Positions 47,651 to 60,796 of a DNA stretch of 64,000 bases are shown one piece after another. The translations under genes were made by a program, and so were the position numbers. Numbering within the stretch: position 1 is the stretch's first letter; every line of letters starts with the position of its first letter. The notes under the pieces are model-generated. The model saw nothing but the letters and a program-made list of their open reading frames with translations. It had not been told where the DNA came from and made no database searches. Source of the DNA: Cyanobium sp. CH-040 (GTDB lineage: Bacteria > Cyanobacteriota > Cyanobacteriia > PCC-6307 > Cyanobiaceae); NCBI RefSeq assembly GCF_024346135.1, contig NZ_JAGQCJ010000013.1, forward strand, positions 1-64,000, written 5' to 3'.

Positions 47651-49458
47651 ACCGCCAGGGAGTGTGGGGACTGAGCTTCAGTCCCGGTGGTGAAGCTCTG
47701 CTGGAGCCCCTGCGCCAGGCCGGCCTGATCGATCAACCCCTCCTGCTCAGCGGCGAGCCCCGCCTCTCCGCCAGCATGGCCGAACACTGGAGCCAGGCCC
47801 GGGGCTTCGTGGTGGTGGGCGCCTGCGGGCTGGTGGTGCGGCTGGTGGCGCCGCTGCTGGCGAGCAAGCAGGAGGATCCGGCCGTGGTGGTGCTCGATCC
47901 CCAGGGGCGCTACGCCATCCCCCTGCTGGGCGGGCATCAGGGAGGTGCCGAGCGGCTCGCTCAGCTGGTGGCGGCCGTGCTCGGCGCTGGCGTGGTGAGC
48001 ACCGGCAGCAGCAGTGGCCGGATGCACCTGCCGCTGGACAGCTTCGGCCGCGACTGGGGCTGGCGGCGGGCTGGCGCCACTGACGCCTGGAGCGCCCTGA
48101 TGAAGCAGGCCGCCCAGCCGGAGGCGGGGCTGCGGGTGTCGCAGGACGCCGGCTGCCGCCTCTGGCAGCGGCTGGAGGCATCACGCCAGCTCACTCCCAT
48201 CGAAGCGCTCCAGCCGGAGGAACCGCCGCCGGCTGATCTGGCCATCACCATCCAGCAGGGTCCGGGCTGCCGCTGGCATCCTCCCAGCCTCTGGCTGGGG
48301 CTGGGCTGTGAGCGTCACACCTCCCTGGCGCTGCTGGAGCGGCTGGTGGATGGACGGCTGAGGGACCTGAACCTGGCTCCCCAGGCCGTGGCCGGGGTGG
48401 CCAGCATCGACCGCAAGGCGGATGAACCGGCCCTGCTGGCGCTGGCGAGCCGGCGCGGCTGGCCGCTGCGCTGGTTCCCCGCCGCTGAGCTGGCCGCCGT
48501 GGCCGTGCCCAACCCCTCGGCGGTGGTGGCGGCCGAGATGGGCACCGCCAGCGTGGCCGAAGCCTCGGCCCTGCTGGCCGCAGGACCGGCGGCCCGCCTG
48601 CTCGCGGGCAAGCAAGTGGAGCGGGCAATGAGCGGCGAGCAGGGAGCCGCCACCCTCGCCATCGCCCTGGCCGGGGAACAGTGGCTGCCCAAGCAGGGGC
48701 AGCTGCATCTGGTGGGCAGCGGCCCGGGGCGCCTGGACCTGCTCACCCCCGATGCCCGTCGCGCCCTGGCCGGCGCCACGGTGTGGGTGGGCTACGGCCT
48801 CTACCTCGACCTGCTGGAACCCCTGCGCCGCCCCGACCAGCTGCGCTGGGACGGCCGGCTCACAGAGGAGGAGGCCCGCTGCGGCCTGGCCCTGGACCTG
48901 GCCAGCCAGGGACTGAACGTGGCGCTGGTGTCCTCCGGCGACAGCGGCATCTACGCCATGGCCGGGCTGGCGCTGGACCTGTGGCTGCGGCGGCCCGCCG
49001 ACGGACGCCCCGCTTTCACGGTGCATCCCGGCCTCTCGGCGCTGCAGCTGGCCGCGGCCCGGGTCGGGGCGCCGCTGATGCATGACTTCTGCACCGTGAG
49101 CCTGAGCGACCGCCTCACCCCCTGGGGGGTGATCGAGCGGCGGCTGCGGGCGGCGGCGGCCGGCGATTTCGTGGTGGCCCTCTACAACCCCCGGTCCCGG
49201 GATCGCCACTGGCAGCTGGAGCGGGCCCGCGAACTCCTGCTGGCAGAGCGCCCCAGCTCCACACCGGTGGTGGTCGCCCGCCAGCTGGGCCGCCCCCAGG
49301 AACAGGTGACGGTGCACACCCTGGACACGCTGCCGGTGGAGGAGGTGGACATGCTCACGCTGGTGCTGGTGGGCAACAGCACCAGCCGCAGCAGCGGCGG
49401 CTGGGTGGTGACGCCCCGGGGGTATCCGGGGGCGGAGATCACCGACAAGTCGGGATGA
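47647..49458 (+). CDS. cobJ: Fused cobalt-precorrin-5A hydrolase (CbiG) - precorrin-3B C17-methyltransferase (CobJ/CbiH)
   Basis: 603 residues. N-terminal CbiG part (about 1-350): [18 protein letters not shown] start, [16 protein letters not shown] and a C-terminal CbiG block [20 protein letters not shown]-terminal SAM-dependent CobJ part (about 355-600): [30 protein letters not shown]-type, [16 protein letters not shown] and [11 protein letters not shown]. The two enzymes act in successive ring-contraction steps of cobalamin synthesis. The gene overlaps the upstream lipoprotein by four bases and its last nine bases lie in the tRNA-Pro gene on the other strand. Confidence 0.93.
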
Positions 49459-49523
49459 CAGGATTCGAACCTGCGGCCCCTTCGTCCCGAACGAAGTGCG
49501 CTACCAAGCTGCGCTACATCCCG
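49450..49523 (-). tRNA. tRNA-Pro (CGG)
   Basis: On the minus strand: acceptor CGGGATG/CATCCCG, anticodon stem CTTCG/CGAAG enclosing TTCGGGA (anticodon CGG), T arm GCAGG-TTCGAAT-CCTGT, discriminator A; CCA not encoded. Its 3' end overlaps the cobJ stop by nine bases. Confidence 0.95.
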
Positions 49524-49621: not shown

Positions 49622-50491
49622 TTGCTGAAACCCGACTGGCTGCGCGTCAAGGCCCCGCAGCGCGAACGCATCGGCGCCGTGGCGGACCTGCTGGTGGACC
49701 TGAAGCTCAACACGGTGTGCCAGGAGGCCAGCTGCCCGAACATCGGCGAATGCTTCGCCGGCGGCACCGCCACCTTCCTGATCATGGGGCCGGGCTGCAC
49801 CCGCGCCTGCCCCTACTGCGACATCGACTTCGACAAGAGCGTGCGCAGCCTCGATCCCACCGAGCCCGAGCGGCTGGGGGAAGCGGTGCAACGGCTTGGA
49901 CTCAGCCATGTGGTGATCACCGCGGTGAACCGCGACGACCTGGGCGACGGCGGCGCCAGCCAGTTCGTCGCCTGCATCGAACAGGTGCGCCGGCGATCCC
50001 CGCACACCACGATCGAGCTGCTGATTCCGGACTTCTGCGGCAACTGGGATGCCCTGGCCGCGGTGATGGAGGCAGCCCCCCATGTGCTCAACCACAACAT
50101 CGAAACGGTGCCGAGGCTCTACAAGCGGGCCCGGCCCCAGGCGATCTACGGGCGTTCGTTGGAGCTGCTGCGGCGGGTGCGCGAGGGCTGGCCCCGCGCC
50201 TACACCAAATCGGGCCTGATGGTGGGGCTGGGGGAGTGCGACGCGGAAGTGCGGTCGGTGATGGCCGACCTGCGGCGTCACGCCGTGGACATCGTCACCA
50301 TCGGCCAGTACCTCTCACCCGGTCCGAAGCACCTACCGGTGGATCGCTTCGTGACGCCGGAGCAGTTCGAGGCTTACCGCCGGCACGGCGAGCAGGAGCT
50401 GGGGTTTCTGCAGGTGGTGAGCTCTCCGTTGACGCGGAGCAGCTACCACGCCGGTGAGGTGCGGCGGCTGATGCTTCAAGAACCCAGGTGA
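49622..50491 (+). CDS. lipA: Lipoyl synthase
   Basis: 289 residues from TTG 49622 ([18 protein letters not shown]). Auxiliary cluster cysteines [12 protein letters not shown] and the radical-SAM [11 protein letters not shown] are both intact. Inserts two sulfurs into octanoyl chains of lipoyl-dependent enzymes. The only upstream in-frame alternative, a GTG at 49496, is inside the tRNA gene. A GGGG about 11 bases before the TTG may serve as ribosome-binding site. A sharp drop in GC begins just after its stop. Confidence 0.93.
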
Positions 50492-50548
50492 ACGCCGCCA
50501 CCAGATCGAGGGACACACAGAAAACACACAACGAGAGGGGTATTGAAC

Positions 50549-51571
50549 GTGAAAGTGTGCTTGCACATAGGGCCACATAAAACCGGCACAAGCGCAGTTC
50601 AGAATGTTCTATCAACTCAAAGCTTTGCGGCGTTTCACTATCCCCAGATTGGCCGGTGGCCCGACGGCTCTCATCACAACTTGATATTCAGCCTGGTTCC
50701 AGAACTCGGCAGGGAGGACGCCGAGCCCTTGCCAGAGCAATCCATCGCCAATCAGCTGAGATCAGAAGTGGCAGCGGCAGGCAAGAAGCAGTTAGTCATC
50801 AGCAGCGAGTACCTCAGCCTCGGAGACTCCTGCAGCAAGTTGCTGGATTGGCTGACCGCCCACGAATTCAGCGACCCAGGGGACTCAACTGCCCTGGTCG
50901 TGGTTAGAGATCCGATTCTGAGGGCATCGTCACTATACAACCAGAGAGTAAAGGATCCACTGGTAGGCGAAACTCGAAGTCCCGACGACTTCCTTCACCA
51001 GGAAGCCAAGAAACAATGCTACTCCAGCATTATTCAAAACCTAATGCGCCATCACATTTCAACGCAGATCATTGCTTATGAACCGTCAAGCTCTCTGGTT
51101 GAGCGTGTTCTGCTTGCTGCTGGCGCGACCACTGATGAAATACCAGAGACAAGCCAGCGGAGAAATGTTTCGCTGGCGAAGCATGTATTAGTAGCCATGC
51201 TTGCCGTCAATCGAGTGGTCCCCGAGATTCAACGCAGACGCATGTATTTTGCTGCCATCAGCAAGGCTCGGCCAGCATTCCAGCCAGCCAACAACATCTT
51301 TTCGTCACAAGCGACCGCATGGGCGCTCAGTGTATTTCAAAGAGACTTGGCGATACCAAGCCTCACGGCAGGCATGAAAAGCGGAGCGAGCCAATCTGAA
51401 AAAGTAAGCCAACACAACAAAACCGAACCGGACGAGGACTTCCTTTTATTGACTGAAGGCGAAAGAATGCTCATCGAGAACGCCGTCAGAACTTCCGGCC
51501 TGGACTGGAAGAATGTATCTAAAGAGATTGACGTTCTCGCAGGAATCTCAAGGAACAGAAATCAGTTATGA
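50549..51571 (+). CDS. Sulfotransferase-like P-loop protein
   Basis: 340 residues from GTG 50549, preceded at 8 bases by GAGAGGGG. The N-terminal LHIGPHKTGTS is the 5'-phosphosulfate loop of PAPS-dependent sulfotransferases, and VVVRDPILRASSLYNQRV matches the 3'-phosphate region. Probably sulfates a glycan or other acceptor. The region is visibly AT-richer than the flanks (28 of 60 G+C in 50581-50640, versus 45 of 60 in 50161-50220). The TTG 50543 is a weaker alternative start. Confidence 0.78.
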   Translation: MKVCLHIGPHKTGTSAVQNVLSTQSFAAFHYPQIGRWPDGSHHNLIFSLVPELGREDAEPLPEQSIANQLRSEVAAAGKKQLVISSEYLSLGDSCSKLLDWLTAHEFSDPGDSTALVVVRDPILRASSLYNQRVKDPLVGETRSPDDFLHQEAKKQCYSSIIQNLMRHHISTQIIAYEPSSSLVERVLLAAGATTDEIPETSQRRNVSLAKHVLVAMLAVNRVVPEIQRRRMYFAAISKARPAFQPANNIFSSQATAWALSVFQRDLAIPSLTAGMKSGASQSEKVSQHNKTEPDEDFLLLTEGERMLIENAVRTSGLDWKNVSKEIDVLAGISRNRNQL

Positions 51572-51584
51572 ACCAGTTCGCACA

Positions 51585-52442
51585 TCAATCTAAATAGACC
51601 CAACGTGCTGGCGGCTGCACGCTGATCGAATTCACGAGATCGCAGTCAGAAGAAAGTCTGAGGCATCGCTCCCTAAAGCTATTGAGCTTCCCCTCAAAGT
51701 CGGGGATCTCCACAATTTGCCGATCAAGAGATTGACAAGCCCTGATCCAAAGAGATTGGTCCAGCTCAAGCATGTTCAGAATCCAACTGGGCATTGAGTC
51801 AAGAGAAACGTCATCAGCCACAACTGCGGAGTCAGACGCCAATGCACCAGGAGATCTTGTGTTGAGGGGAGCGGCGTAGGAAAGATCAGACGGAAGGCCT
51901 AGGGCCTGGAAGTGATGCTCAAGCGCGACCAAGGACTCATCAAATCGCTCGACAACGCCTACAAACAAGTCGACTCGATCCATATCAATGAGATCGGGCC
52001 GCAACTGCCAACCCTGACGAAATTGGAAACCCTGAAGACCCTGCGGTGATAGATGACGACTTTGAAAGTTTGCCAATATGCCTTTATATTGAGACTCCAT
52101 GTAATGACGAAAGGAAGTCTCCTGGGGCAGCTTATGCTGAACATCGCGGACAAAACGAAAGGCAGACTGATAGCGATCCCATGGCTTGCGAACAAACGAA
52201 ACCTTGAGGGCAGCCAGCTCGCCGGGAGGAGGGCAGTCAATCAAATGGGATGTAAGAGCCCGGTAAGGCTGAAGATCAAGGCTCTGCTCGACTCTTTGCC
52301 AACTCAGCCTGGCACTTGAGTTGCTTGACTCAACATACAAAACCTGAGATGAAAAGATTTTCTCAAGGATCCAACTGAACGTGGTGCCGGCGCACTTAAA
52401 TGTATGCAGATGCAGAACCTTCAGCGGCAGATCCTTGATCAT
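51585..52442 (-). CDS. Sulfotransferase family 2-like protein
   Basis: 285 residues from ATG 52442. HLHTFKCAGTTFSWIL is the 5'-phosphosulfate loop of carbohydrate O-sulfotransferases (K-x-A-G-T-T), and SFVRKPWDRYQSAFRF the 3'-phosphate binding helix. These PAPS-dependent enzymes add sulfate to sugars. Low GC like its neighbours. Its 5' end overlaps the 3' end of the large glycosyltransferase by 47 bases, so both are one transcription unit, and it converges on the other sulfotransferase with 13 bases between stops. Confidence 0.8.
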   Translation of the reverse strand: MIKDLPLKVLHLHTFKCAGTTFSWILEKIFSSQVLYVESSNSSARLSWQRVEQSLDLQPYRALTSHLIDCPPPGELAALKVSFVRKPWDRYQSAFRFVRDVQHKLPQETSFRHYMESQYKGILANFQSRHLSPQGLQGFQFRQGWQLRPDLIDMDRVDLFVGVVERFDESLVALEHHFQALGLPSDLSYAAPLNTRSPGALASDSAVVADDVSLDSMPSWILNMLELDQSLWIRACQSLDRQIVEIPDFEGKLNSFRERCLRLSSDCDLVNSISVQPPARWVYLD

Positions 52443-55400
52443 CGCCAACGAAAATCTCAACCTTTTCTAGAATCTTGCACATCTGGCGACGAGCCTTGGA
52501 GTAGGAAAAACAAGTCTTCGCAAACTCACGGGAATTTGCCGACAATTTGTTCCAAAGAGTTTCCTCCTCGATCAAGGCCGTGATAGCGGCACGCCATTCG
52601 TCAGGGCTGCGCGCAATCAGGCAGTCAAAACCATCGCGAAGGCCTATGCCCTCGGCAGCGCAAGGAGAAAGCACAGTGGGAATACCAAACGCCAATGCGT
52701 TAATGACCTTACCCTTGACCCCGGCGCCGCTTAACAGTGGCGCAACGAAAACGGCATGCTGAGTATAGACTGTAGAAACATCTTCAACATATCCATGGGC
52801 AAGAATATGCCCTGAGGAGAGCTCTTTAATGTGTTGCGGCATTCTGGAACCATAAAGGTGCAGCATATACTGGCCACCTTGATTCTGCTCTAGGAGTGGC
52901 ATCACGGAATGGCAGAACCATTGTATACCCTCTACATTGGGGTGATGAAGATAGCTGCCAACAAATGACATCCCGTTTCGTCCACGACGATGGGGGATAT
53001 CGCGGGGAAAGCGCACGAACCAGGGGCAAATAGCCGATTCAGCTTGGCAGTTTGTACTAGAATCAATTGCTGCCAGTTCCTCAGAAGAATAAGATAAGAC
53101 AAGATCCGACTGCTTCATCATTTCTACTTCCCTATCTTTTACGATCATGGCCTGATCAAATGCCTCTGGCGAACGCTGGGATGAAGCAGAACGAAGAAGC
53201 CTGAGATAATGCAAATCCGCGAGATTTAGAATTATTTTTGCACTGGGGTTGGAGCGTCGAATGAAATGGTTCACCGCTTGAGCAACGTCATACCGATTGA
53301 CATAGAACAAGTCAAATTCGGCAGCACGCTCCAGCAGAAAAGTTTCCAGTGAGAGATAAAATGGCGCTGTTATGACTTCAACTCCCTGCCTCTCAAGGCG
53401 GTCAACATAAACTCCGAAGTGCGCCAGGTTAGCGGGCAAGAATGTTACTTTTGCCCCAAAAGACTGGAGGAGCTGAATTTCGTTAACGGCAGCAAAAGAG
53501 CCAGCATCCTTATCAGGCATACTGACTTTATCGTCGACAAATAAAACACGAAAGGAAATATTCCTATCCTTCACCAAATCCGGCTGTTCACCTTCGGCAC
53601 CAAGCTGCTTGAAGGCAAGCGACCATTTACGTTTAAACTTAGGGCGGTTGACTTCTTGAAAAGCCTTAAAACCATCAGAAATATCAGTTCCACTCGTTGC
53701 CCCCTCGTAATGAAAAACAGTTGCCGAGGGAATGTACCAAGTGGTGTAGCCTGAGGCTCGGACTTTAAAGGAAAGATCTGTATCCTCAAAATACATCGGC
53801 TCTAGATAGCTGCTCAATCCGCCGACTTGATCCCAGGCTTCCCGAGAAATCATCAAAGCAGCACCAGAAAGATAGTCAGCCTGACGTGCATAGCGAAAGC
53901 GTGGATCGTGGGGGCTTTCGCCACGCCCATAGTTCCAAGGATTACCACTATTCCAAACAATTCCACCAGCATCCTGTAAGATTCCTGAAGGGTAGAGAAG
54001 CTTCGCTCCGCAGACTCCCACCCTAGGAAAACGTCGGAATCCTTCCAGAAGTTGATCGAGCCAAGATACCGTAACCTCTGTGTCATTGTTTAGAAGCACC
54101 AAGTAATCTCCTTGGGCAACCCGAGCACCTGCATGACAGGCCTTGATAAATCGCTGTGGGGTCTCATTGCGAAGGACTTTTATCCCCTTGAAGACGGAGA
54201 CAGCGTTAGTTGTTTCATCATCAGACCCGTCATCTACAAGGATCACTTCGTAAGGAACGTGGCTCCAAGCAAGTGCAATAGATGCGAGGCAACAATAGGT
54301 ATGGGCAAATTGATTATGGCAAGGGATAATGATCGAGACAAGAGGTTTCAGGCTTGTTGGAATCTCGATTGGTTCATAGGTGCTACGGCCAACTGGACCC
54401 TGATCGAGAATTGCAATAAGTCGTGCCAGATCTGTTCTGTCTGGTGTGTGCTTGCTATCCGACTCTAACCATCGACACAACGCCCTAAATCGATAGGATT
54501 GAGCAGCCGAAAGGTGGTCGGGATAGGGTGGAGAAACATTGTTCTGCAGAACTGGCAGATTTGTTAACACCTCTGGAGTTTTCAGCCACACCTGACAGCA
54601 GCTGAGAGAACCGGAAAGGTCCTGAAAGTCAAGCAGGGTATAGCGACCAGATAGAAACTGACTGGGAATCGAAATCCACTGATCGCGTTTACCAAAGAAG
54701 CTCACCCGCTTAGCCGGTACTCCATTGATCCGCAGCAAAAATTGGGAACCAACCGGAGCTCTACATTTGATTGAATGGCCGTGATCTTCAATCAGCCTCA
54801 GCTTGGTTCTTGCGATCAACTGGTCAATAACTGGATGAGCACCAGGATGGGACAAGACCCTTAGTCTGATTGCTGAATATCTCACGGGAACAGGCAGAGG
54901 AGCCTTTAGCCAGATGTCCTCAGAGAGAACAAATGATGACGCTCCCTCAACATGCAATAAACTCTGAGCTGCCGCGCGATCCCGTCGACCAAGGCGCTGC
55001 ACGAACTGGGGGGAAGATAAAATAATCAGTGGACCTGGGCCTTCCTCGTCTCCTGTGAATGATACATACACAACTTCAACCGTAACCACCATCAGTTGGT
55101 CCCGGTTTAGCGGCCGTGAAACCTTATGTTCGATCAGCTGAAAGTCTGACAGGGATTGGCCACCACGATAAGCCGAATTACTATCATAAACAGACTGAGA
55201 GAGCACTTCGCCGTCGGCAGATGCAATCGAAACGCGAACTGTCGCCTCGCAGTTCTGAAATCCTGCATACAACACAATCGCCGAGCGATTGCCCACGATT
55301 CGAGCCGAGAATGACCAGTCAGAGATGACGGGAACTGCCAGCCGGGAACCCCTTTCTTTAATTTGGACAACGCAGTATTTTTCACCACTGACGACAATCT

Positions 55401-55677
55401 CTGTCCAGTCCGAACAGGTAGTTTCATAGTCAGCATTGACAACTGGCTGATCGAAAGCAAGATCGAGCTGATGATCAACAAAATTCAGCCTAGGGCGAGC
55501 GCACGGCTCAAATCCTTGAATCGTGTCATCAACCTCAAGCAGCCAATCATGGCTGGGCTCAGAAGCCAGGACAAGATAGACATTGCCATCTTGAAGGTAG
55601 GCCGCCTTGAAATCCGGAGTGCTTGAGGCCCTCTCATCGACAACTTCAGATGATTGATGAAAATGTGGTGAGAGCAC
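52396..55677 (-). CDS. Large multidomain glycosyltransferase (GT2 plus GT4-like)
   Basis: 1,093 residues, GTG start. About 1-440: no domain recognised; beta-rich looking. About 444-700: family 2 glycosyltransferase, with VSIIIPCHNQFAHTYCCL, VILVDDGSDDETT, LVLLNNDTEVTVSWLD and YFEDTDLSFKVRASGY. About 704-1060: GT4-like domain with VLFVDDKVSMPDKDAGS, ILNLADLHYLRLLR and a donor-binding FVAPLLSGAGVKGKVINALAFG-type region. Such double enzymes build O-antigen-like or S-layer glycans. GC is lower than the flanking genome, and no gene of this kind is adjacent on the core side. Likely part of a glycan building and sulfation cassette. Confidence 0.85.
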   Translation of the reverse strand: MLSPHFHQSSEVVDERASSTPDFKAAYLQDGNVYLVLASEPSHDWLLEVDDTIQGFEPCARPRLNFVDHQLDLAFDQPVVNADYETTCSDWTEIVVSGEKYCVVQIKERGSRLAVPVISDWSFSARIVGNRSAIVLYAGFQNCEATVRVSIASADGEVLSQSVYDSNSAYRGGQSLSDFQLIEHKVSRPLNRDQLMVVTVEVVYVSFTGDEEGPGPLIILSSPQFVQRLGRRDRAAAQSLLHVEGASSFVLSEDIWLKAPLPVPVRYSAIRLRVLSHPGAHPVIDQLIARTKLRLIEDHGHSIKCRAPVGSQFLLRINGVPAKRVSFFGKRDQWISIPSQFLSGRYTLLDFQDLSGSLSCCQVWLKTPEVLTNLPVLQNNVSPPYPDHLSAAQSYRFRALCRWLESDSKHTPDRTDLARLIAILDQGPVGRSTYEPIEIPTSLKPLVSIIIPCHNQFAHTYCCLASIALAWSHVPYEVILVDDGSDDETTNAVSVFKGIKVLRNETPQRFIKACHAGARVAQGDYLVLLNNDTEVTVSWLDQLLEGFRRFPRVGVCGAKLLYPSGILQDAGGIVWNSGNPWNYGRGESPHDPRFRYARQADYLSGAALMISREAWDQVGGLSSYLEPMYFEDTDLSFKVRASGYTTWYIPSATVFHYEGATSGTDISDGFKAFQEVNRPKFKRKWSLAFKQLGAEGEQPDLVKDRNISFRVLFVDDKVSMPDKDAGSFAAVNEIQLLQSFGAKVTFLPANLAHFGVYVDRLERQGVEVITAPFYLSLETFLLERAAEFDLFYVNRYDVAQAVNHFIRRSNPSAKIILNLADLHYLRLLRSASSQRSPEAFDQAMIVKDREVEMMKQSDLVLSYSSEELAAIDSSTNCQAESAICPWFVRFPRDIPHRRGRNGMSFVGSYLHHPNVEGIQWFCHSVMPLLEQNQGGQYMLHLYGSRMPQHIKELSSGHILAHGYVEDVSTVYTQHAVFVAPLLSGAGVKGKVINALAFGIPTVLSPCAAEGIGLRDGFDCLIARSPDEWRAAITALIEEETLWNKLSANSREFAKTCFSYSKARRQMCKILEKVEIFVGDDQGSAAEGSASAYI

Positions 55678-55931
55678 TGCGTTCTAAGCTGAGGATTAAC
55701 TGAAGATCAGGGATATCCGCTGACAGCCCGATCTATTCAGCAGACTGTCGAAACACACCAACAAGGCCAGCCAACAGGCAAGGCTCGCACCAGCATAAGC
55801 AGACCAGGATTTTGGCCGAAGGTCTCGTGCCTGAAGTGAATGGGCAGAGGCAGCCTCCCCTGGGATCGACGCACCAGCGACTCTGTTATGACCTGAATGA
55901 GTCCTGAGGAGAGATGGCAAGCGCTCCGGAG

Positions 55932-58900
55932 TCAGGCAGCGGCCACCACCTCCCTCTCGGCGAGGCCCATCGCCGCTTTCTCGCTGGGCGGCACCAGCAG
56001 CCGGAAGCGGGGCCTCCAGCTGGGCCAGTCGGCCAGGATCTGGGCGGCGCGGGTGCTGCCGGTGCACTCCAGGTGGCGCTCCAACAGCGGCTTGAGCACG
56101 GCCTCCTGCTCGGCGGTGGTGAGGTCGGTGATGGCGACGGTGTCGGGATTGACGCGATCGGCAAGGCGGTCGTCCTCATCGAGGATGAAGGCGACACCGC
56201 CCGTCATGCCGGCGGCGACGTTGCGTCCGGTGCTGCCCAGCACCACCACCACGCCACCGGTCATGTATTCACAGCAGTGGTCGCCAGCACCCTCCACCAC
56301 AGCCGCAGCGCCGCTGTTGCGCACGGCGAAGCGCTCCCCGGCCCGGCCGAGGGCGAACAGTTCACCGCCGGTGGCGCCGTAGAGGCAGGTGTTGCCCAGG
56401 ATCACCTGACGGCCTGGATCGATGGCACCGGCATGGGGCACCACGGTGATGGTGCCGCCGTTCATCCCCTTGCCCACATAATCATTGGCGTCACCCAGCA
56501 GGTGCAGGGTCATGCCCTGCAGAAGGAAGGCACCGAAGCTCTGGCCTGCGGCCCCCTCGAAGCGCAGATCGAGTTCGCCGCCGAAACCCCTGTTGCCATG
56601 GCGCGCGGCGATCTCGCCAGCCAGCCGGGCACCCACGCTGCGGTCGGTGTTGCTGATCGTCAGGGTGCGCTGGAGGCGGCCATGGGTCTCGATGGCGGCC
56701 ATCACCTCGGCATCGGCCAGCAGCTGATCCTCCAGGATCGGACCGTTGCCATGGGCGGCCCGGTCATGCTGCAGCCAGCGACGGCCGGCGGCCTCAGGGA
56801 TCGGGTCCAGCAGGCAGGAGAGGTCCACGCGACTGGTCTTGGCCAGGGCCACGTCACGCACGCCCAGCAGATCGCTGCGGCCGATCAGCTCATCCATGGT
56901 GGCCACCCCGAGCACGCTCATCAGCTGCCGCACCTCCTCTGCCACGAACAGGAAGAAGTTGACGACGTGCTCGGGCAGGCCGGTGAAGCGGCGGCGCAGA
57001 GCCTCCTTCTGGGTGGCCACCCCCACCGGGCAGTTGTTGGTGTGGCAGACGCGGGCCATGATGCAGCCCTCGGCGATCATGGCGATCGAGCCGAAACCGA
57101 ATTCCTCGGCTCCCAGCAGGGCGGCGATCACCACATCCCAGCCGGTCTTGAGGCCGCCGTCGGCGCGCAGCAGCACCCGGTCGCGCAGGCCGTTCTCCAG
57201 CAGGGCGCGGTGCACCTCGGTGAGGCCCAGCTCCCAGGGGGTGCCGGCGTGCTTGATCGAGCTCAGCGGCGAGGCGCCGGTGCCGCCGTCGTGCCCCGAG
57301 ATCTGGATCACGTCGGCGTTGGCCTTGGCGACACCGGCGGCGATGGTGCCGATGCCGATCTCGGCCACCAGCTTCACGCTCACCCTGGCGGCGGGATGCA
57401 CCTGATGCAGGTCGTGGATCAGCTGGGCCAGGTCCTCGATCGAATAGATGTCGTGGTGGGGCGGCGGTGAGATCAACGGCACGCCGGGCTTGCTGTTGCG
57501 CAGCCAGGCGATGTAGTCATCAACCTTGGGGCCGGGGAGCTGGCCGCCTTCACCGGGCTTGGCGCCCTGGGCCACCTTGATCTCGAGCTGCTGACCGCTG
57601 CGCAGGTATTCGGGGGTGACCCCGAAACGGCCCGATGCCACCTGCTTGATCGCCGAACAGGCTGAATCACCGTTGCGCAGTCCACCGATGGTGGGAAGGC
57701 TGGATGAACGCCCGTCCTGATCCACATCGCTGAGCACGTGGAAGCGGGCCGGATCCTCGCCGCCCTCGCCGCTGTTGCTCTTGCCGCCGATGCGGTTCAT
57801 CGCCACCGCCAGCACCTCGTGGGCCTCACGGGAGAGGGCCCCCAGACTCATGCCCCCGGTGCAGAAGCGCCGGCAGAGGCTCTCGACGCTCTCCACCTGC
57901 TCAATCGGCAGCGGTGTGGCGGCCGGCTTCAGCTCCAACAGGTCGCGCAGGGCGGTCACCGGCCGGCTGTTGAGCAGGGTCTGGTAGGTGGCGAAGTGGT
58001 CGTAGCCCGGCCCGGCCTTGACGGCCGCGTGCAGGGCCTTGGCCATCTCCGGACTGTTGAGGTGGTATTCGCCGCCCGTGCGGTACTGCACGAAGCCCAT
58101 GAATTCGAGCTTGGTGCGATCCAGTTCGGGGAAGGCCTTGGCGTGGAAGGTGAGGGTTTCGCTCGCCAGCTCGCTCAGGCTCAGGCCGGCGATGCGGCTG
58201 GTGGTGCCGCAGAAGGCCAGGTCGATCAGATCGGCGCCGATGCCGATGGCTTCGAAGATCTGCGCGCCGTGATAGCTGGCCAGCAGTGAGATGCCGATCT
58301 TGGAGAGGATCTTGCGCAGGCCGTCCTCGAGGGCCCTGCGCACATTGGCCTGAGCCTGCTGTGCATCGAGAGGCGGCAGCTTGCCGGTTTCGATCAGCTT
58401 CTGGATGCGCGGCTGGGCGAGCCAGTGGCGGGTGGTCTCCCAGGTGAGCCAGGGGCACACCGCACTCGCCCCGAACCCGATCAGACAGGCCAGGTGGTGG
58501 GTGCTCCAGCACTGCGCCGTGTCCACCACCAGGGAGGCCCTCAGACGCAAACCCAGCCGCAGCAGGTGATGATGCACCGCCCCGACGGCGAGCAGCGGCG
58601 GCACGTAGGTGGTGGTGGCATTGATGCAGCCGGGGCTGCCGTCGATGCCGACGCGGTCACTCAGCACCAGGATCTGGTGCCCGTCACGCACGGCGGCCTC
58701 GGCCTCGTGCTGCAGTCGCCGCACGGCCTGCTCCAGCCCGGCCGGGCCACTGGCCACGGGCACCAGGGTGGAGAGCCGGACGGTGGGCAGACCCTGGTCG
58801 GCCAGCGTCGCCAGCTCGGCGTCGTTGAGCACCGGCGTGTCCAGATGCAGTCCGGCGGCTCCCGTCGGCTCGGGACGCAGGGGGGATCCCCGGCTGCCGA

Positions 58901-60545
58901 GATGCATCTCCAGGCTCATCACCAGCTTCTCCCGCAGCGGGTCGATCGGCGGGTTGGTGACCTGGGCGAAGCGCTGCTTGAAGTAGTCGTAGAGGAGATG
59001 CGGCTTGCTCGAGAGCACGGCCAGGGGAATGTCGTCCCCCATGCAGTAGGTGGGCTCCTTGCCAGCTCCCGCCATGTCCTCGATGACGAGATCGAGATCC
59101 TCGGCCGTGAACCCGTAGGCCGTCTGCTGCTGCAGCAGCTCCAGGTCGCCCAGCAGCTGCTCCTGGCCCCAGGGCTGGGCTGCCAGGCTGCGCCGGTTCT
59201 CGGCCAGCCAGGCGGCGTAGGGATGGCGGGCCGCGGCCTCCTCCTTCACCTCCCAGTTGTGCAGCAGGCGGCCCTGTTCGAGGTCCACCGCCAGCATCTG
59301 GCCAGGACCGAGCCGTCCTTTCTCGACGATCCGGGATTCCTCCAGATCGAGCACCCCGGTCTCCGAGCCCATCACCACGTAGCCGTCGCTGGTGATGCAG
59401 TAGCGGGCCGGCCGCAGACCGTTGCGGTCGAGGGTGGCGCCGACACTGTGGCCATCGGCGAACACCAGCAGCGCCGGGCCGTCCCAGGGCTCCTGGGTGC
59501 AGGCATTGAACTCGTACATGGCCTGGACGGCCGGGCGGCTCTCCAGGTCGGGCTGGTTGCGGAAGGCCTCCGGCACCAGGGTGAACAGGCTGTCGGTGAT
59601 CGGCCGGCCGCTGCGCACCAGCAGCTCGAGAGTGGCGTCGAGATTCGCCGAATCGCTGAAGGCGGGATTGACCACCGGCTTGAGATCGGCGGCGGCATCA
59701 CCCCAGACCGCCTCCAGGTGAGTTTCGGCGGCCCGGGCCCAGTTCAGATTGCCGAGCAGGGTGTTGATCTCCCCGTTGTGGCCGAGCAGGCGCATCGGCT
59801 GGGCCAGGGGCCAGCGGGGCAGGGTGTTGGTGCTGAAGCGGCGGTGGTACACCGCGAAGGTCACGGCGAAGCGCTCATCGCGCAGGTCGGCGTAGAAGGC
59901 GGCGAGCACCTCGGAGCGCACCATGCCCTTGTAGACGACGGTGCGGCCGCTGAGGGAGGCGAAGTAGAGGTCGCCGGCGCCGGCGGCGCCCCAGGCCTCC
60001 CGGGCGCGGTCACCGCAACGGCGGCGCAGGCGGAACAGCAGGGCATCGAGGGCATCGCCGTGCACCTCGGCCCCCAGCAGCCACTGCTCGATGCAGGGGG
60101 CGGTGCCACGGGCCATGGGACCGAGCACGTCCGGATCCACCGGCACGGTCCGCCAGCCCAGGCTGCGCAGGCCGAACCGCTCCGCCTCCTCGTTGCAGAA
60201 CCGGCGGGCCTGCTCCCGCCGGACCGGATCGGTGGGCAGGAAGACCATGCCCAGGCCCCGGGAGGAGTCGGCGCTGCCGGCCGCCTCCGGCCACACGGCC
60301 TCCAGGAAGCGCCAGGGGATGCCGCAGAGCACACCGGCACCGTCGCCGGAATCACCGTCACCGCCGCAGCCGCCGCGATGCTCCATGCAGCCCAGCCCCC
60401 GCAGGGACTGCTGCAGCAGCCAGTGACTGGGTTCGCCGCGCAACGAGGCGACGAAGCCCACCCCGCAGGCGTCCTTCTCCCCGGCCACGGCCGCCGGAGC
60501 GGGGCTGTCGCAGTGGGGCCATGCGGGGCGGGGGAGTCGTGGCAT
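55932..60545 (-). CDS. gltB: Ferredoxin-dependent glutamate synthase (Fd-GOGAT)
   Basis: 1,537 residues from ATG 60545. Predicted 26-residue propeptide is removed to expose nucleophile Cys27 in EKDACGVGFVA (class II amidotransferase). Central domain, FMN-binding domain with GGTGASPLSSIKHAG and ADGGLKTGWDVVIAALLGAEEF, 3Fe-4S ligands in CIMARVCHTNNCPVG, and C-terminal beta-helix. No gltD-like small subunit is adjacent, and VNFFLFVAEEVR is typical of the ferredoxin type (GlsF). Converts glutamine and 2-oxoglutarate into two glutamates with photosynthetic electrons. No NtcA palindrome is visible in the 250 bases upstream. Confidence 0.95.
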   Translation of the reverse strand: MPRLPRPAWPHCDSPAPAAVAGEKDACGVGFVASLRGEPSHWLLQQSLRGLGCMEHRGGCGGDGDSGDGAGVLCGIPWRFLEAVWPEAAGSADSSRGLGMVFLPTDPVRREQARRFCNEEAERFGLRSLGWRTVPVDPDVLGPMARGTAPCIEQWLLGAEVHGDALDALLFRLRRRCGDRAREAWGAAGAGDLYFASLSGRTVVYKGMVRSEVLAAFYADLRDERFAVTFAVYHRRFSTNTLPRWPLAQPMRLLGHNGEINTLLGNLNWARAAETHLEAVWGDAAADLKPVVNPAFSDSANLDATLELLVRSGRPITDSLFTLVPEAFRNQPDLESRPAVQAMYEFNACTQEPWDGPALLVFADGHSVGATLDRNGLRPARYCITSDGYVVMGSETGVLDLEESRIVEKGRLGPGQMLAVDLEQGRLLHNWEVKEEAAARHPYAAWLAENRRSLAAQPWGQEQLLGDLELLQQQTAYGFTAEDLDLVIEDMAGAGKEPTYCMGDDIPLAVLSSKPHLLYDYFKQRFAQVTNPPIDPLREKLVMSLEMHLGSRGSPLRPEPTGAAGLHLDTPVLNDAELATLADQGLPTVRLSTLVPVASGPAGLEQAVRRLQHEAEAAVRDGHQILVLSDRVGIDGSPGCINATTTYVPPLLAVGAVHHHLLRLGLRLRASLVVDTAQCWSTHHLACLIGFGASAVCPWLTWETTRHWLAQPRIQKLIETGKLPPLDAQQAQANVRRALEDGLRKILSKIGISLLASYHGAQIFEAIGIGADLIDLAFCGTTSRIAGLSLSELASETLTFHAKAFPELDRTKLEFMGFVQYRTGGEYHLNSPEMAKALHAAVKAGPGYDHFATYQTLLNSRPVTALRDLLELKPAATPLPIEQVESVESLCRRFCTGGMSLGALSREAHEVLAVAMNRIGGKSNSGEGGEDPARFHVLSDVDQDGRSSSLPTIGGLRNGDSACSAIKQVASGRFGVTPEYLRSGQQLEIKVAQGAKPGEGGQLPGPKVDDYIAWLRNSKPGVPLISPPPHHDIYSIEDLAQLIHDLHQVHPAARVSVKLVAEIGIGTIAAGVAKANADVIQISGHDGGTGASPLSSIKHAGTPWELGLTEVHRALLENGLRDRVLLRADGGLKTGWDVVIAALLGAEEFGFGSIAMIAEGCIMARVCHTNNCPVGVATQKEALRRRFTGLPEHVVNFFLFVAEEVRQLMSVLGVATMDELIGRSDLLGVRDVALAKTSRVDLSCLLDPIPEAAGRRWLQHDRAAHGNGPILEDQLLADAEVMAAIETHGRLQRTLTISNTDRSVGARLAGEIAARHGNRGFGGELDLRFEGAAGQSFGAFLLQGMTLHLLGDANDYVGKGMNGGTITVVPHAGAIDPGRQVILGNTCLYGATGGELFALGRAGERFAVRNSGAAAVVEGAGDHCCEYMTGGVVVVLGSTGRNVAAGMTGGVAFILDEDDRLADRVNPDTVAITDLTTAEQEAVLKPLLERHLECTGSTRAAQILADWPSWRPRFRLLVPPSEKAAMGLAEREVVAAA

Positions 60546-60599
60546 AACCCGAAGCGTTCCGGCGGAAAGTCTTGGCAGTGGACAGGGGGCATGTCTGGA

Positions 60600-60617
60600 C
60601 CCGGGACGCATCCCGGG
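60600..60617. other. Perfect hairpin between gltB and the NAGPA-type gene
   Basis: CCCGGGA (60600-60606), CGCA, TCCCGGG (60611-60617) form an exact 7-bp stem in the divergent intergenic region (60546-60796). On the minus strand it would lie about 55-72 bases before the gltB start codon, in its leader. Confidence 0.5.
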
Positions 60618-60796
60618 CCGGGGGCCGTGTCGTCTTGGCCGGAGGGCCACGTCGCCTGGCCGGTGAGACCGGAGCTGGGCCGGTGTTGCGTGCGCCCGGG
60701 GGAGCATGCACCTGCGGAACGACAGATCCTAGGGATTCGCGGCCCCGAAACGGCCCTAACGTCAGCGGCCGAAGGTGGAGCGAGAGGCGAGAGGCC

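Follow-up and report, generated by a model that had tools for sequence, protein, structure and literature searches.

A low-GC islet encoding two putative sulfotransferases of different families and a fused glycosyltransferase between lipA and gltB in Cyanobium sp. CH-040

The nearest published system is the synechan xss cluster of Synechocystis sp. PCC 6803, which encodes two sulfotransferases of distinct subfamilies together with glycosyltransferases (PMC8205485). Borne on a megaplasmid, the xss cluster brings its own regulators and the assembly genes Wzx, Wzy and PCP in addition to eight glycosyltransferases, and many partial clusters have been reported from cyanobacteria (PMC8205485).

Here we describe an islet in the window, the 64,000-nucleotide stretch of Cyanobium sp. 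CH-040 that was analysed (contig NZ_JAGQCJ010000013.1, positions 1 to 64,000). Like xss, it combines two sulfotransferases of apparently distinct subfamilies with a glycosyltransferase on the accessory DNA of a cyanobacterium, a megaplasmid there and an islet here. Unlike xss, it has a single two-domain glycosyltransferase and no Wzx, Wzy or PCP, and no XssQ/R/S regulators are found within it. Its gene content fits what is known of cyanobacteria.

Layout of the lipA-gltB insert

The islet and its borders comprise the following features.

49640..50491, + strand: lipA, identified by sequence as lipoyl synthase; left edge of the slot
50492..55931: whole insert, from the lipA stop to the gltB stop, GC about 0.50, against 0.70 in the surrounding DNA
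50549..51571, + strand: ST1, 340-residue PAPS sulfotransferase (by motifs and predicted fold), GTG start
51572..51584: 13 bp separating the ST1 and ST2 stops, read directly
51585..52442, - strand: ST2, 285-residue Sulfotransfer_2-like putative PAPS sulfotransferase, ATG at 52442
52396..55677, - strand: GT, fused GT2-GT4 glycosyltransferase of 1093 residues (open reading frame and domain matches)
55932..60707, - strand: gltB/glsF, identified by sequence as large glutamate synthase; right edge of the slot

ST1, ST2 and GT are the only three open reading frames between the lipA and gltB stops, and form a 5.2-kb low-GC islet. Their GC3 values are 0.46-0.57, whereas lipA, its upstream neighbour and gltB have 0.88-0.90, and the insert was most likely acquired horizontally. 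An earlier note on this DNA had placed the two sulfotransferase genes face to face with 13 bases between their stops and had linked them to a glycosyltransferase within an insert; the coordinates agree exactly, and the insert is indeed a three-gene low-GC block. GT carries a GT2 domain at about residues 447-660 (E 1.4e-22) and a GT4 domain at about residues 840-1075 (E 4e-20), while its N-terminal 290-440 residues are variable among relatives. ST2 lies downstream of GT, whose terminal 47 nt also hold the ST2 start in another reading frame, so that the two genes are probably translated together. ST1 points towards them from the opposite strand, and the three genes therefore do not make up one operon.

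Several alternative accounts of the insert were considered and rejected. Integration at a tRNA site does not fit the layout, as the nearby tRNA-Pro (49449-49523) lies on the far side of lipA and does not border the insert. The gene order of the islet looks flipped relative to that in the genome G061 and to that in G140 and G121, but no inverted repeats flank the islet, which argues against a segment inverting in place. A phage origin was likewise discarded: a set of 50,697 phage records contains no relatives of ST1 or ST2, and IMG/VR contigs yielded none of ST2.

Two putative sulfotransferase families

ST1 has a 5'-phosphosulfate loop (5'-PSB), HIGPHKTGTS, at residues 6-15 and a 3'-phosphate motif (3'-PB), RDPILRASSLY, in which R120 and S128 are eight apart. 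We gathered relatives by scanning 84,980 genomes, and found them in cyanobacteria, Alteromonadaceae, Rhodobacteraceae and actinobacteria. In an alignment of 26 relatives, K11, T12, S85, E87 and S128 are invariant and R120 is conserved in at least 90%. As read from this alignment, the residue pattern is that of the 5'-phosphosulfate loop and 3'-phosphate motif of PAPS sulfotransferases. ST1 itself has no match in Pfam or NCBIfam and scores over no curated cut-off, and its 26 relatives show only weak Sulfotransfer_1/4 matches in these libraries. The best match of the ST1 profile among solved structures is the bacterial sulfotransferase 3rnl (E 1.7e-10), followed with weak E-values by heparan 3-O-sulfotransferases and NDST, the latter aligning at the same loop.

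The predicted structure is in line with this assignment. The AlphaFold2 model of ST1 (pLDDT 84, pTM 0.80) aligns to 3rnl, NDST1 and heparan 3-O-sulfotransferases with Z 13.5-15.3 across 209-224 residues, the best alignments being 3rnl (15.3), NDST1 (15.1) and 3-O-sulfotransferase-3 (14.7). All of the best 50 rows of the full-length structural alignment are sulfotransferases; a Foldseek search was less clean, with sulfotransferases in the first four rows and adenylate kinases after them. In the predicted model, ST1 thus has the sulfotransferase fold. ST1 shares this fold and the PAPS motifs with NDST and the heparan 3-O-sulfotransferases (1nst, 9f6z, 1t8t) and with 3rnl, but differs from them in its identity of only 11-19% and in having no deacetylase domain.

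None of the curated libraries that we searched contains the ST1 family of predicted sulfotransferases, which is new here. Its non-cyanobacterial members keep the same motifs at about 17-31% identity to ST1. The homologues in Alteromonadaceae and actinobacteria are unannotated, and those on plasmids of Phaeobacter, Paracoccus and Rhodobacter are annotated as hypothetical proteins; the plasmid matches are four in all, weak, and confined to Rhodobacteraceae. Among the neighbourhoods that we read around non-cyanobacterial relatives, no clear glycan locus was seen, except in a Pseudomonadales metagenome-assembled genome (MAG; L124).

In ST2 the corresponding motifs are HLHTFKCAGTT and RKPWDRYQSAF, and H19, K22, G25, R91, R96 and S99 are invariant across 11 relatives. 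ST2 scores 17.3 bits against Pfam Sulfotransfer_2 (PF03567), under the gathering cut-off of 22, although 10 of the 11 members of its alignment match Sulfotransfer_2 (E up to 1), the best with E 6.3e-8. The top PDB match of the ST2 profile is heparan 2-O-sulfotransferase, weak at E 0.1. ST2 therefore resembles the Sulfotransfer_2 enzymes of the heparan 2-O type in motifs and profile, but, unlike members of PF03567, falls below the Pfam cut-off, and we do not file it in that family. Structure prediction for ST2 from the single sequence, without an alignment, was uninformative (pLDDT 34), so this assignment rests on sequence. As a side observation, an ST2-type frame in the genome G170 (L054:11098-13188) extends into about 410 extra residues without a Pfam match and stands beside a second, nearly identical ST2 copy, which suggests a recent duplication or fusion.

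The earlier note had taken the two loops as signs of two families, and both loops are real: their key residues are invariant in the 26 ST1 and the 11 ST2 relatives. Direct comparison of the two profiles gives a weak similarity (probability 49%) by way of the two shared motifs, as expected if both families belong to a single superfamily. The further claim that the families have separate acceptor classes finds no support, because the acceptor does not follow from family membership and the closest relatives of known structure, for either enzyme, act on sugar chains. Also raised there was the prospect that the loops belong to another P-loop family. An assignment to other P-loop enzymes, such as kinases or AAA proteins, is hardly credible: Foldseek does list adenylate kinases among its weak ST1 matches, but the R-x7-S 3'-phosphate motif is conserved in the ST1 and ST2 families alike, and the uniform 50 best full-length alignments exclude it for ST1.

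A slot with changing cargo

We located lipA and gltB in 142 genomes and could measure the gap between them in 131. The two genes are convergent neighbours in the family, with a gap of less than 0.8 kb in 123 of the 131 measurable genomes and of more than 1.7 kb in eight, the genome of the window included. A gap of 305-430 bp is common in many genomes and may hold a small YCII-domain frame, which is absent where the gap is 0-90 bp; G061 has such a frame of 103 residues between gltB and lipA (L047:6013-6324).

About five genomes hold sulfotransferase and/or glycosyltransferase genes in the slot. In G061 it contains GT and an ST2-type gene without ST1. In G121 it spans 59 kb and includes several sulfotransferase-like genes, with an ST1 gene 1.8 kb from gltB; at the lipA edge (L070:291-8195) lies a 2634-residue glycosyltransferase with several GT4-type domains, followed by sulfotransferase-like genes. 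A large protein adjoining lipA near a contig end in G155 (L075) has a start that looks homologous to that of this protein. ST1 adjoins gltB in G140, where lipA is on a separate contig; in both G121 and G140, ST1 stands beside gltB without the islet-type GT as its neighbour. Elsewhere the cargo is of other kinds: a SulP-family sulfate/bicarbonate-type transporter with a STAS domain in G024, G119 and G070 (L065, L066 and L069), accompanied in G070 by a two-partner secretion pair, and efflux genes in G193, with G181 similar by its open reading frames. Since the filling differs between genomes, the lipA-gltB slot is a recurrent, general insertion site, of which glycan cargo is one recurrent class. 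This insertion site with changing cargo is new here.

One case hints at how the cargo may move. In G075, about 285 kb away from the intact gltB-lipA pair, there is a 939-bp block made up of a gltB 3' end and an adjoining small YCII-like frame. Its identity to the gltB region of G061 is 83%, against 72% to the gltB of G075 itself, and a second gltB piece 1.1 kb further on gives 80% and 71%, respectively (L059:6235-7170 and L059:8240-8462). Three sulfotransferase-like genes follow the displaced pieces. The simplest reading of this single case would be that slot cargo moved between genera together with part of the donor gltB, by a mechanism that we infer.

The association of GT with sulfotransferases recurs outside the window. 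In 17 loci with ST1 or ST2 relatives, the window excluded, a strong GT match lies within 10 kb in eight, against 0.11 expected from random placement (Poisson P about 5e-13, shared ancestry ignored). The tightest cases are G061, where an ST2-type gene comes 4 nt after GT, and G140, where the spacing is 10 nt, the encoded proteins being only about 24% identical to ST2 of the window. A cyanobacterial MAG (L084) has ST1 and GT convergent with 6 bp between stops, which is the layout of the window without ST2, and in the MAG L124 GT is followed by an ST1-family gene. In G045, a short vestige of the ST2-type start seen in G061 and G140 lies 3' of GT and is followed by another Sulfotransfer_2 gene; ST1-type genes lie 4-10 kb from GT, and the genome has a partial ST1 copy. 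The recurring units are thus GT with an ST2-type gene and GT with ST1. ST1, ST2 and GT occur all together in no other genome of the 201, and since only one genome has all three, the trio is not a fixed cassette.

Possible role of the islet and competing readings

We favour the reading, at a probability of roughly 70%, that this is a horizontally acquired islet for glycan decoration, which would sulfate a surface glycan built elsewhere. GT may attach one or two sugar residues to a glycan assembled outside the islet, either a surface polysaccharide or that of a glycoprotein. PAPS would be supplied by the APS kinase of the cell, and such a kinase is encoded in the host genome. ST2, probably translated together with GT, and ST1, transcribed from the opposite side, would then move sulfate from PAPS to hydroxyl or amino groups of the glycan. 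The glycan would be sulfated while still in the cytoplasm and then exported by machinery from other loci, and the outcome would be a strain-specific sulfated surface epitope.

The islet had also been proposed to be self-contained, a view that its content and the rest of the genome do not bear out. It has no flippase, polymerase, ABC exporter, export or priming transferase gene; Poly_export genes are found on contigs C26 and C25, and the genome has about a dozen further sulfotransferase-like genes. Five loci score above the Sulfotransfer_2 cut-off, one of them shared with Sulfotransfer_3; a further three loci match Sulfotransfer_3, and another four are of the ST1 type. On contig C26 (C26:40001-98000 of the host genome G000; L179-L181), several sulfotransferase genes, including two more ST1-like genes without a Pfam match, and a glycosyltransferase match lie near the Poly_export gene. 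This contig is the probable main polysaccharide locus, and a likelier assembly locus than the islet.

Counting against glycan decoration are the opposite strand of ST1 relative to ST2-GT and the sub-threshold Pfam score of ST2. The convergent arrangement also suits another reading, possible but doubtful in our view, in which ST1 and GT-ST2 are independent insertions at a shared permissive site with no common substrate. The unrelated transporter, secretion and efflux cargo of the slot favours it, as does the separate occurrence of GT-ST2 in G061 and of ST1 by gltB in G121 and G140. However, the direct convergent pairing of ST1 and GT in L084, their succession in L124 and the proximity of ST1-type genes to GT in G045 speak against it. 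Alternatively, the substrate of the islet enzymes could be a lipid, a small molecule or a protein. StaL, the curacin and olefin-synthase domains and TPST, which take acceptors of such kinds, have the same fold, but we consider it unlikely that one or both sulfotransferases use a lipid, a secondary metabolite or a protein tyrosine as acceptor, given that heparan N- and 3-O-sulfotransferases are among the enzymes closest to ST1 by structure and profile, that heparan 2-O-sulfotransferase is nearest to ST2, and that linkage to a glycosyltransferase is repeated. Decaying or silent cargo, as the ST2-type vestige and partial ST1 copy of G045, a member of another genus, might imply, is very unlikely here, where all three frames are full length and keep every conserved motif residue.

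Phage adsorption, grazing and aggregation in cyanobacteria are influenced by the glycans at the cell surface. We offer tentatively, and as a suggestion that may well prove wrong, that the picocyanobacterial gltB 3' end is a docking site where sulfotransferase-glycosyltransferase cassettes, carried with pieces of donor gltB, are swapped between genera, giving strain-specific sulfated coats, and that ST1 belongs to a sulfotransferase family which occurs in several phyla but is missing from the curated libraries searched.

As Pfam and NCBIfam have no label for the ST1 family, counts of sulfotransferases in cyanobacteria, Rhodobacteraceae and actinobacteria are too low, and a survey that relies on PF00685, PF03567 and PF13469, like the one in PMC8205485, would not detect this family. 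With one glycosyltransferase, two sulfotransferases and relatives in which the site is empty, the islet offers a simple setting in which to work out the target of each sulfating enzyme.
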